Below are positions 16,646-24,481 of a stretch of DNA of 45,759 bases, piece after piece. The stretch comes from Tabrizicola sp. (GTDB lineage: Bacteria; Pseudomonadota; Alphaproteobacteria; Rhodobacterales; Rhodobacteraceae). Below the pieces are notes generated by a model, which was given only the letters and a program-made list of their open reading frames with translations, searched no databases and was not told where the DNA came from. Positions within the stretch are counted from its first letter, which is position 1. Every line of letters starts with the position of its first letter. A program made the translations under genes and the position numbers. The stretch lies in assembly GCF_016792905.1 (NCBI RefSeq), contig NZ_JAEULP010000070.1, positions 1 to 45,759 on the forward strand, in the 5' to 3' direction.

Positions 16646-19096
16646 ATGGCTGAAGCCGCCAAGAAGCCCGCCGAATACGGTGCCGATTCCATCAAGGTTC
16701 TCAAGGGATTGGAGGCTGTCCGCAAGCGCCCGGGAATGTACATCGGCGACACCGACGACGGCTCGGGCCTGCACCACATGGTGTACGAGGTCGTCGACAA
16801 CGGTATCGACGAAGCGCTGGCCGGGCATGCGACGGCGGTGATCGTGAAAATCCACGCCGATGACAGCGTTTCCGTCTTCGACAACGGCCGCGGCATCCCG
16901 GTCGACATGCACCCCGAGGAGGGTGTGTCCGCGGCCGAGGTCATCATGACCCAGCTGCACGCGGGCGGAAAGTTCAACAACACGGATGAGGGCGGCAACG
17001 CCTACAAGGTCTCGGGTGGTCTGCACGGCGTCGGCGTGTCGGTGGTCAATGCGCTCAGCGAATGGCTGGAACTGACCGTCTGGCGCAACGACACCGAATA
17101 CCGCGCCCGGTTCGAGGATGGCGATTGCGTGGTGCATGTGCACGAGGTCGGCCCGGCGCCCGGCAAGCGGGGAACCGAGGTGCGCTTCCTGGCTTCGGCC
17201 AAGATCAACCGCCCGGACGGCACCTTCTCGAACCTCGACTACAGCTTCAAGACGCTGGAAACGCGGCTGCGGGAGCTCGCGTTCCTGAACTCCGGCGTGC
17301 GGATCATCCTGGAGGATGAGCGCCACGCCGAACCGCAGCGGATCGAGCTGTTCTACGAAGGCGGCGTGCGGGAATTCGTGAAGTACATCGACCGGTCGAA
17401 GACGTCCGTGATGCCGGAACCCATCTACATGGTGGGCGAGAAGAATGGCATCGGGGTCGAGGTCGCGATGTGGTGGAACGACAGCTACCATGAAACCGTA
17501 TTGCCGTTCACAAACAACATTCCGCAGCGTGACGGCGGCACCCACCTGGCCGGATTCCGGGGCGCGCTGACCCGGACGATCACCGGCTACGCCCAGTCCT
17601 CGGGTATCGCCAAGCGCGAGAAGGTGGATTTCACCGGCGACGATGCGCGCGAGGGGCTAACCTGCGTGTTGTCGGTCAAGGTGCCGGACCCGAAATTCTC
17701 CAGCCAGACCAAGGACAAGCTGGTCTCTTCCGAGGTCCGCCCGGCGGTGGAGAACCTGGTGAACGAGAAGCTGTCGGAGTGGTTCGAGGAGAACCCCGGC
17801 CCGGCGAAGATCATCGTCGGCAAGATCATCGAGGCCGCCCTGGCCCGTGAAGCCGCCCGCAAGGCCCGCGAACTGACCCGGCGCAAGACTGCGCTGGACG
17901 TGGCCTCGCTGCCCGGCAAGCTGGCCGATTGCCAGGAACGCGATCCCGCGAAGTCGGAGCTGTTCCTGGTCGAGGGTGACTCGGCAGGCGGCTCGGCCAA
18001 GCAGGGCCGCAGCCGCGCCAATCAGGCCGTCCTGCCCCTCCGCGGCAAGATCCTGAACGTGGAACGGGCGCGGTTTGACCGGATGCTCTCCAGCCAGGAG
18101 ATCGGGACGCTGATCACCGCGCTTGGTACCGGCATCGGCCGTGACGAGTTCGACATCGGCAAGCTGCGCTACCACAAGGTCGTCATCATGACCGACGCCG
18201 ACGTCGACGGCGCCCATATCCGCACGCTTCTGCTGACCTTCTTCTTCCGGCAGATGCCGGACCTGATCGAGGGCGGCTATCTCTACATTGCCCAGCCACC
18301 CCTCTACAAAGTCGCGCGCGGCAAGTCCGAGGTCTACCTGAAGGACCAGGCCGCGCTGGACGACTATCTGGTCGAGATGGGCACCGAGGGCGCCGTCCTG
18401 CGGCTGACCGACGGCACCGAAATCGCGGGCAACGACCTTGCCCGCGTGATCGAAGGCGCCCGCCAGTTCCGCCGGGTGCTGGACGCCTTCCCGACGCATT
18501 ACCCGCGCGCCATCCTGGAGCAGGCCGCGCTTGCCGGGGCTTTCGATCCGGGCCGGGCGGACGATGATCTGCAACTGGTTGCCGACACGGTGGCCAAGCG
18601 CCTGAACCTGATCGCGCCCGAGTTCGAGCGCGGCTGGCACGGCCGCATCACCCAGGATCACGGCATCCGCCTGTCGCGTATCCTGCGAGGCGTCGAAGAG
18701 CTGCGCACACTTGACGGCGCGGTCCTGCGGTCGGGCGAGGCTCGGCGGCTGTCCCAGATCGCCGGGCAATACCGCGACATCTACCGCGACCCCGCCCGTC
18801 TGGTCCGCAAGGACCGGGAGCAGGCGATCCACGGGCCGATCGACCTGTTGAAATCGATCCTGGCCGAGGGCGAAAAGGGCCTGACCCTGCAACGCTACAA
18901 GGGTCTGGGCGAGATGAACCCCGACCAGCTCTGGGAAACCACACTGGACCCGGAGGCGCGGACACTGTTGCAGGTCAAGGTCGACGACCTGGCCGAAGCC
19001 GACGACATCTTCTCCAAGCTGATGGGCGACGTGGTGGAACCGCGGCGGGAGTTCATCCAGCAGAACGCGCTGTCGGTCGAACACCTGGACTTCTAG
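16646..19096 (+). CDS. gyrB: DNA gyrase subunit B
   Basis: This 816-residue protein has the GHKL ATPase motifs [13 protein letters not shown] and [20 protein letters not shown], followed by LHAGGKF and [13 protein letters not shown]. Its TOPRIM domain has [15 protein letters not shown] and [15 protein letters not shown], and the C-terminus contains [20 protein letters not shown]. With GyrA it introduces negative supercoils using ATP. The start has its own promoter. Its stop codon shares the CTAG tetranucleotide with the stop of the convergent rhamnosidase gene, so no terminator separates them. Confidence 0.98.
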
Positions 19097-23194: not shown

Positions 23195-24481
23195 TCAGAC
23201 GATGCCGGACGAAGACCCCTTCACCTCCGGCCGCTCCTTCGCCACCCGGTCCCGGTAGCCCGAGCTGCGATAGGCCGCGATGGGATCATAGGCCCCGCCC
23301 GCCCTGATCCGCGCTTCCGCCAGGATCGGCGAGACATCGGTCAGGAACCCGGCCTTCAGTGTTCGATGCGCCGCCATCACGTCATTTGCGTCCTGCGCCT
23401 CGGCCAGCGCCTTCCGGTCGACCAGCGAGGCCTGCACATAGGCCCGCGCGATCTCCACCGCCGACCCCATCAGGCTTTCGATCGGATCGGTCACGTTGTG
23501 GCTTTGGTCGATCATGTAGCTGGGGTTGAACCCCTTGGCCCCCCGCAACTCCGCCTCGACCAGTTCGTTGAAGACCAGGAACAGCCGGAACGGATCGACC
23601 GAGCCCGAATCCAAATCATCGTCGCCATACTTCGAATCGTTGAAGTGGAACCCAGCCAGCCTTCCCACATGCACCAGCCGCGCCACGATCTGCTCGATGT
23701 TTACATTTGGCGCGTGGTGGCCGAGGTCCACCAGGCATTTCGCCTTCGGGCCAAGGTGCTGCGCCGCCATCAGCGATGAACCCCAGTCGGAAATTACCGT
23801 CGAATAGAAGGCCGGCTCATACATCTTGTGCTCGATGAACATCGCCATGTTCGCCGGAAGCGCCGCATAGACCTGCTCCATCGCCGACAGGTAGCTCTCG
23901 AACATCCCGCCAAGGCTCTGCTGCCCGGCGAAGTTGGTCCCGTCGCCGATCCAGACCGTCAACGCAGGCGCACCCAGGGCCTTGCCGATCTCGATGCACT
24001 CGATGTTGTGCGCTACCGCCTGCGCGCGGGTATCCGAACGGGTGTTCGCCAGCGACCCGTAGCGGTAGCTCAACCCCTGATCCGCCTGATCCTGGAAGGT
24101 GTTGGAGTTCACCGCATCGAACCCCAGCCCATACTGCGCCGCTTCCTGCCGCAGCGCGTTGTAGTCGGACACCTTGTCCCACGGGATATGCGGCGAAACC
24201 GTCCGGGTTCCGCGCGTCAGCTCTTGGATCACCCCGCAATCGGCCAGCTTGTCATGGATGTTCCGCGGCTCACCCCGCCCCGGGAACCGCGCGAACCGCG
24301 TGCCCCCGGTCCCCACACCCCAGGTCGGCACGGCGACCGACCAGCCCATCGCGCGTGTCACCACGGCCTCGATATCCACCCCGCGACGGGCAAGTTTCCG
24401 CCCCAAAGCCCCGAACTCGTCCTGATGCGCGGCCTTCGCGGCATCGTTCAGCGACCCGACCAGATCTTCGGAAACCAGCAT
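23195..24481 (-). CDS. rhaI: L-rhamnose isomerase, RhaI type
   Basis: This 428-residue TIM-barrel isomerase resembles the Pseudomonas stutzeri/rhizobial RhaI type rather than E. coli RhaA. Recognisable segments are SVAVPTWGVGTGGTRFARFP, IWIGDGTNF-like VWIGDGTNFAGQQS, FIEHKMYEPAFYSTVISDWG, VDLGHHAPNVNIEQIVA, and FHFNDSKYGDDDLD, which supply the Glu, Asp and His metal ligands. It converts L-rhamnose to L-rhamnulose. The ATG at 24481 is preferred over GTG at 24487 because it is better spaced from AGGGGG. It follows rhaD by nine bases. Confidence 0.95.
   Translation of the reverse strand: MLVSEDLVGSLNDAAKAAHQDEFGALGRKLARRGVDIEAVVTRAMGWSVAVPTWGVGTGGTRFARFPGRGEPRNIHDKLADCGVIQELTRGTRTVSPHIPWDKVSDYNALRQEAAQYGLGFDAVNSNTFQDQADQGLSYRYGSLANTRSDTRAQAVAHNIECIEIGKALGAPALTVWIGDGTNFAGQQSLGGMFESYLSAMEQVYAALPANMAMFIEHKMYEPAFYSTVISDWGSSLMAAQHLGPKAKCLVDLGHHAPNVNIEQIVARLVHVGRLAGFHFNDSKYGDDDLDSGSVDPFRLFLVFNELVEAELRGAKGFNPSYMIDQSHNVTDPIESLMGSAVEIARAYVQASLVDRKALAEAQDANDVMAAHRTLKAGFLTDVSPILAEARIRAGGAYDPIAAYRSSGYRDRVAKERPEVKGSSSGIV

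Follow-up and report, generated by a model that had tools for sequence, protein, structure and literature searches.

A DUF4037-UroD-GH78 gene trio and its importer in a Tabrizicola L-rhamnose operon suggest an undescribed way of using modified rhamnose

An L-rhamnose operon with three additional genes

Glycans of plants, algae and bacteria are rich in rhamnose, which often carries substituents. In this report, we analyze a rhamnose locus on contig NZ_JAEULP010000070.1 of Tabrizicola sp. (GCF_016792905.1), a stretch of 45,759 nt that is hereafter called the window, and focus on three genes for a DUF4037 protein, a UroD-like protein and a GH78 enzyme that are joined to the rhamnose genes. On the minus strand, rhaD (24491..26560), encoding the bifunctional rhamnulose-1-phosphate aldolase/dehydrogenase, is followed after a 9-base gap by rhaI (23195..24481), encoding a rhizobial-type L-rhamnose isomerase, and then, after a 27-base gap, by the genes for the DUF4037 protein (22112..23167; 351 amino acids), the UroD-superfamily protein (21129..22115; 328 amino acids) and a GH78-family alpha-L-rhamnosidase (19093..21132; 679 amino acids), which we refer to as the trio. 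The first two genes of the trio share a four-base ATGA overlap, and the last two share a four-base TTGA overlap, with TTG as the GH78 start codon. RhaD exceeds the cut-off of NF006189, and RhaI scores 664.8 bits against TIGR02629 (cut-off 646.75). A first-pass annotation had described rhaI, the DUF4037 gene, the UroD-like gene and the rhamnosidase gene as lying on one strand with a 27-base gap and two four-base overlaps, and both the coordinates and the family scores agree with that description. The GH78 gene, the last of the trio operon, ends 4 bases within the convergent gyrB (19093-19096), and its end adjoins gyrB in several relatives of the trio as well.

The divergent, plus-strand side of the locus begins with a DeoR-family regulator (26628..27518; family-profile match) and continues with an ATP-binding cassette (ABC) importer. 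Its genes encode a RhaS-like substrate-binding protein of a trio-linked subfamily (27563..28606; a family match under the TIGR02637 cut-off), a RhaT-like sugar ATPase (28677..30188) and a RhaP-like permease (30346..31353, with the start set at an in-frame ATG), both recognized from family matches and comparison with other rha loci, and a RhaQ-like permease (31350..32306), named from its position and from matches in other rha loci. An L-rhamnose mutarotase gene (32306..32620; PF05336) follows, and a RhaK-like sugar kinase gene (32625..33983), named on the same grounds as RhaQ, lies on the minus strand. The isomerase, the aldolase-dehydrogenase, the mutarotase, the divergent DeoR regulator and the layout are shared with the alphaproteobacterial L-rhamnose operon rhaDI/rhaSTPQUK of Rhizobium leguminosarum (regulon survey PMC3870299).

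Conservation of the trio and of its importer

The gene-neighborhood survey that the first-pass annotation had proposed revealed a conserved trio in both Rhodobacteraceae and Chloroflexota. A single scan of the genome collection with exact peptide patterns yielded 47 loci with a DUF4037 relative; patterns of this kind under-count distant relatives. The pooled comparison comprises 57 DUF4037 loci from which identical places were removed, and it still includes the window copy (L180) and one doubled locus (L047/L068). Within it, a UroD ortholog adjoins DUF4037 in 42 of the 51 loci with at least 1.5 kb of downstream sequence; where at least 3.5 kb is available, UroD is present in 36/44 loci and GH78 in addition in 31/44. 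DUF4037, UroD and GH78 were collinear, on one strand and in identical order in 67 of 67 fetched loci with the complete trio, several of these loci being repeats of one place. The linkage of the trio is not due to chance.

Among the Rhodobacteraceae-type loci of the 57, the DUF4037-UroD junction spans 0-18 bases at the level of the matches. Wherever the contig is long enough, loci of this type keep rhaD-rhaI-DUF4037-UroD-GH78 next to RhaSTPQ, with four exceptions: rhaDI is inverted in L041 and L057, L032 has no rhaI match, and L040 has a GMC oxidoreductase instead of rhaDI. One further locus (L023) is filed as Exiguobacterium profundum, yet its DUF4037 (86%), UroD (93%) and rha genes are Rhodobacteraceae-like, and it is probably a mislabelled draft. 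In Chloroflexota (Caldilineaceae, Anaerolineae and others), the trio occurs in the window order, with best-segment identities of 53-60% for DUF4037, 58-70% for UroD and 43-51% for GH78.

We then asked how the trio relates to the basic rhamnose route. Across 32 genomes of the genus (the window genome and 31 others), RhaI was found in 14 and DUF4037 in 13, every one of which was RhaI positive (Fisher p = 4e-8). The sole RhaI-positive genome of the genus lacking DUF4037 (G014) has a damaged contig, on which rhaI is followed by GH78 fragments and then gyrB, with no match to DUF4037 or UroD (L270:1-5000); since gyrB is also short by about 55 residues there, an assembly error is possible, and this genome was not counted as a natural co-loss. 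A sample of 295 genomes drawn from the family contained RhaI in 34 and DUF4037 in 3, each of the 3 being RhaI positive (p = 0.0014). Because DUF4037 is missing from 31 of these 34 rhaI-positive genomes, the trio is an add-on outside the basic rhamnose route. The first-pass annotation had staked its reading on the trio not being absent from all relatives with rhaDI; some such relatives do carry it, nonetheless DUF4037 is confined to 3/34 of the rhaI-positive family genomes. Twenty non-trio rha loci were compared with the window, 19 from the family (31 available) and one from another family of the class (L178). In these loci, rhaI, rhaD and DeoR were found in 20/20 and RhaS in 19/20, and a match to any trio protein in 0/20 (L142 being shortened by a contig end). 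Thus, these 20 loci differ from the window in having no DUF4037, UroD or GH78 of its type, and in having a different RhaSTPQ subfamily. The cassette is rare in Chloroflexota: a draw of 301 genomes of the phylum gave a DUF4037 match in two, namely the genome on which the draw was centred and one whose match is only 32% identical, but in the family of G063 (Caldilineaceae) DUF4037 was present in 14/46 genomes.

The first-pass annotation had missed that the transporter, judged from sequence comparison, departs from the ordinary rha operon as the middle pair does. The mean identity of the window proteins to 19 non-trio alphaproteobacterial loci (L178 included) is 39% for RhaS, 45% for RhaT, 34% for RhaP and 39% for RhaQ, and to six or seven Chloroflexota loci (L043, L046, L051, L058, L059, L161 and L170) it is 69%, 60%, 55% and 60%, respectively; window RhaI and RhaD show 63% and 66% mean identity to the 20 non-trio alphaproteobacterial loci. 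By these means, the window importer resembles the Chloroflexota one more than the type that is common in Rhodobacteraceae, whereas the catabolic enzymes are family-like. The window DeoR regulator also departs from the ordinary one (47% mean identity), and its Chloroflexota matches reach 32% only. In a tree of 41 RhaS sequences (the window, 12 other trio-linked alphaproteobacterial, eight Chloroflexota, 19 non-trio and one very distant outgroup, with L033 and L139 being one place), the trio rows of both phyla share one side of a branch with a support of 100; the outgroup is too distant for rooting, and only the unrooted split was used. Against TIGR02637, the RhaS model (cut-off 342.25), window RhaS scores 288.6 bits and five other trio-linked RhaS proteins 270.6-288.9 bits, and two ordinary RhaS proteins score 450.7 and 460.2 bits. 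Our comparisons indicate that the RhaSTPQ importer subfamily tracks the trio rather than the species. Some importer loci carry two or three RhaS-like binding-protein genes in tandem (L059:4977-7919, L174:17212-19995 and L170:4103-6082).

Import of a rhamnose derivative and release of L-rhamnose

The last protein of the trio matches the rhamnosidase domain PF17389 (Bac_rhamnosid6H) with 44.4 bits (cut-off 24.5), and two other rhamnosidase domains, PF08531 and PF05592, below their cut-offs. Among solved structures, BsRhaB of Bacillus sp. GL1 (2okx) is the nearest relative of this protein. In a profile alignment, GH78 residues D381, E386, D393 and E656 stand opposite BsRhaB D567, E572, D579 and E841, the catalytic acids of that enzyme, and all 16 aligned proteins share the four window residues. 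Although all four acids align, the window protein is shorter than BsRhaB (679 versus 956 amino acids), and its gene shares an operon with those for UroD and DUF4037. The N-terminus has no strong hydrophobic stretch (0.88 versus 1.89 for RhaS), a measure that is weak alone because DUF4037 also gives 1.78; a cytosolic location would nevertheless be natural for this enzyme because the importer adjoins.

The genes next to the trio in Chloroflexota bear on its product. In L059, the trio is followed by RhaA (above cut-off) and a rhamnulokinase-like gene (505.3 bits, cut-off 527.95), and in L051 by RhaA and a bifunctional RhaD, both above cut-off; in L173, a Gram-positive-type RhaI (503.1 bits, cut-off 531.35) comes after the trio. 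L-rhamnose mutarotase (rhaM) genes occur in L059 and L172, YhcH/YiaL genes in L043 and L168, and an enolase-superfamily gene, sugar-acid dehydratase-like and below all cut-offs, in L043. No rhamnose isomerase was evident next to the trio in L043, L046, L047 and L058. Because unrelated rhamnose isomerases, RhaI and RhaA, adjoin the same trio, L-rhamnose is the expected product of the cassette proposed below.

From these data, we consider it rather likely that the divergent ABC importer belongs with the trio to a single cassette within an otherwise ordinary Rhodobacteraceae L-rhamnose operon, and that this cassette takes up a small rhamnose derivative and sets L-rhamnose free in the cytosol. The basis of this cassette model is observed: the conserved linkage, an importer and trio subfamily common to two phyla, the GH78 catalytic residues and the unrelated rhamnose isomerases alongside. 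According to the model, the cassette would be mobile, with its importer occupying the usual RhaSTPQ place and taking up, beyond free rhamnose, a small derivative of L-rhamnose, most likely a small-aglycone rhamnoside or a substituted rhamnose. The DUF4037-UroD pair would work in the cytosol on the sugar moiety, where it may take off or rearrange a substituent or render the substrate acceptable; GH78 would then cut the glycosidic bond, and the freed L-rhamnose would pass through RhaU-RhaI-RhaK-RhaD. The first and last parts of this scheme are supported by the gene linkage, the phylogeny and the intact catalytic residues, and we infer the middle part as well as the substrate, the cytosolic site and the order of the steps. 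The first-pass annotation had read the genes as a route in which an imported rhamnoside is modified or activated by the DUF4037 and UroD-like proteins and then hydrolyzed inside the cell to feed RhaI. Import, processing and intracellular hydrolysis feeding a rhamnose isomerase gain support from an importer that travels with the trio and from RhaA beside the trio in L051 and L059, but an activating role of DUF4037, a modifying role of UroD and the step order lie outside that support.

Several observations weigh against the cassette model. Nine of the 51 DUF4037 loci with at least 1.5 kb downstream have no adjoining UroD ortholog (L045, L048, L053, L055, L056, L164, L165, L166 and L167); in the genomes of L045 and L048, the UroD ortholog is located on other contigs. 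L172 and L174 hold DUF4037, UroD and a window-type RhaS with no GH78 and no recognized rhamnose isomerase, their neighbors being a metallo-hydrolase, a mutarotase and additional UroD genes. DUF4037 and GH78 are both missing from L170, where UroD and RhaSTPQ are present. In L171 and L173, the trio comes with a different importer, and in L047 no window-type importer lies within 8 kb of it. The gene contents of L047 and L170-L174 thus show that the importer, GH78 and the DUF4037-UroD pair are not strictly bound together. In addition, importers of the RhaSTPQ class mostly carry monosaccharides, so any imported rhamnoside must be small, and we found no experimental study of window-type trio genes in the open-access literature. 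The best PDB matches of window RhaS are rhamnose-binding proteins (4kvf and 5bq3). Together with the occurrence of DUF4037 without UroD and GH78 in L053, L055 and L056, these matches fit a simpler explanation, in which ordinary L-rhamnose is the cargo of the importer and the three trio proteins are loose accessories or hitch-hikers. However, the trio order is kept across two phyla, the importer subfamily accompanies the trio and the residues are strongly conserved, and we regard this explanation as improbable.

Rhamnoside uptake plus hydrolysis beside rha genes is already known, as PMC3870299 documents: the rhiLFG/ramA and rhmEFG/rhmA modules resemble the window in combining ABC import with hydrolysis of rhamnosyl compounds beside rha genes. 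The words uroporphyrinogen and DUF are absent from the main text of that paper, and no paper linking UroD or DUF4037 to rhamnose use was found in the open-access literature. The recurrence of the set in very distant bacteria suggests an undescribed way of using modified rhamnose. A cross-phylum cassette that brings two proteins of unassigned chemistry into rhamnose use suggests that the breakdown of substituted rhamnose includes a step yet to be described, and the locus is a small, genetically simple place to learn the roles of sugar-linked UroD-like proteins and DUF4037.

The UroD-like and DUF4037 proteins

The UroD-like protein matches PF01208 (URO-D) with 77.2 bits (cut-off 23.9). Its model has a predicted local distance difference test (pLDDT) score of 94.4 and resembles HemE (4wsh, E 1.7e-15), MtaA (4ay8, 1.1e-11) and MetE (from 1e-7). 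Across 35 aligned sequences, D174, D175 and H214 are invariant, and D216 and H299 nearly so. Two established identities were rejected. For HemE, the protein scores 38.9 bits against TIGR01464 (cut-off 302.95), and a separate PF01208 hemE-like gene, with 388 bits, is present in the genome. For a standard MtaA/CmuA enzyme, it scores 38.4 bits against TIGR01463 (cut-off 235.4), and H214-S-D216 and H299 replace the H-x-C and the later C that serve as zinc ligands in MtaA. The fold and the metal-motif His are thus common to MtaA/CmuA (4ay7) and the window protein, whereas the HxD/H residues and the family scores far below the cut-offs set the latter apart. The trio-type UroD proteins form a single clade (15 rows, support 98 in a FastTree tree read unrooted).

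These relationships raise a special case of the cassette model, in which the UroD-like protein is a methyltransferase that demethylates O-methyl-rhamnose or glycosides of it, with a corrinoid protein or tetrahydrofolate as the methyl acceptor and DUF4037 in an assisting role, and GH78 and RhaI handle the plain rhamnose. After HemE, the nearest solved relatives, MtaA and MetE, are methyltransferases, and H214 aligns with the histidine of H-x-C in MtaA. In Chloroflexota, the UroD superfamily includes B12-binding domains fused to a UroD domain with the same H-S-D-G motif as the trio type (L171:14345-16129 and L218:902-2740), and the fusion in L171 lies on the same strand within the gene run that contains the trio; the window genome itself encodes one PF02607 corrinoid protein. 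On the other hand, D216 and H299 occupy the positions of the two MtaA cysteines, the window operon has no corrinoid gene, the corrinoid protein of the genome is encoded on another contig, and the L040 genome, a draft of just 2.4 Mb, has no PF02607 protein above cut-off. Among 159 UroD-like frames, all from stretches picked around listed UroD matches, a corrinoid gene within 1.5 kb was found for 0/14 trio-type UroD genes (one in L171 is 6.2 kb away), 13/92 other HxD, 1/36 HxC and 6/17 of the remaining frames. The 13 HxD frames near a corrinoid gene indicate that the HxD motif is compatible with a corrinoid partner. No literature on UroD with corrinoid sugar O-demethylation, nor on bacterial O-methyl-rhamnose demethylation, was found in an open-access search. 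On balance, we put O-demethylation forward tentatively and with considerable doubt.

Some Chloroflexota drafts contain many distant relatives of this superfamily, with 42, 30 and 29 matches, the trio type included, in G062, G066 and G069; of the other 15 genomes in the same count, 13 have 1 to 10 matches and two have none. Judged by eye in five stretches, the UroD genes of G062, G066 and G069 (L170-L174 and L185-L240) have importer, epimerase, oxidoreductase, sulfatase-like and creatininase-like genes as neighbors. We speculate that the trio UroD might belong to a large undescribed group of sugar-processing UroD proteins that remove O-methyl or other substituents via an HxD/H metal site, partnered by a DUF4037 protein that has no classic metal motif and a new role; such a group is a possibility to which we give less than even chances. 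There is a real chance that the DUF4037 and UroD-like proteins harbor new enzyme chemistry.

The DUF4037 protein scores 96.3 bits against PF13228 (cut-off 22.1) and has no sequence match in PDB. Its model (pLDDT 91.6) retrieves with Foldseek the nucleotidyltransferase-like protein 3c18 and the kanamycin/neomycin, lincosamide and streptomycin nucleotidyltransferases, matches that are weak by E (0.008-0.16) with a probability of 0.90-1.00. Canonical enzymes of the kanamycin nucleotidyltransferase (KNTase) type carry GS followed by a D-x-D/E metal motif. DUF4037 reads GS...D54-H55-H56 where that metal motif is expected, and it does not conform to the canonical pattern. At the last motif position, covered by 44 of 46 aligned rows, His occurs in 40 (the window included), Gln in three (L104, L106 and L107) and Asp in one, the divergent L093. 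The overall fold is therefore like that of ANT(4')/kanamycin nucleotidyltransferase, but one metal carboxylate is replaced. The protein might still be an active nucleotidyltransferase that adds a nucleotide to a sugar hydroxyl in the manner of the aminoglycoside enzymes, for trapping or activation. The top Foldseek matches are of this kind, and PMC3710099 places DUF4037 with aminoglycoside nucleotidyltransferase C-terminal domains; the weakness of these matches by E and the His that dominates the second carboxylate position make such an activity quite unlikely. The same paper lists DUF4037 with the HEPN superfamily, which would allow an MNT/HEPN-type toxin or defence component sitting by chance in the operon. 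However, its table row reads 'No' in what appears to be the catalytic-motif column, the sugar context is constant, and PADLOC gave no match for the DUF4037, UroD-like or GH78 protein; we consider a toxin or defence role highly improbable.

The DHH-type DUF4037 and UroD go together in Caldilineaceae, where a UroD ortholog was present in 10/10 genomes with a DHH-type DUF4037 and in 1/36 others (46 genomes; Fisher p = 3e-9). That one genome (G410), the sole member of the family with UroD and without DUF4037, is assembled in short contigs. Four Caldilineaceae genomes carry a DUF4037 of the 51-52% type without a UroD ortholog, and the three of these that were read (L104, L106 and L107) form the DHQ subclade. 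Outside this family, a DHH DUF4037 without an adjoining UroD occurs in L053, L055 and L056, so the association holds in Caldilineaceae and not everywhere; the best UroD-like matches in these genomes are at most 36% identical, with none in that of L056. At the far end of the window locus, a tRNA-Arg (CCT) gene lies at 34045-34120, just past the RhaK-like kinase gene.

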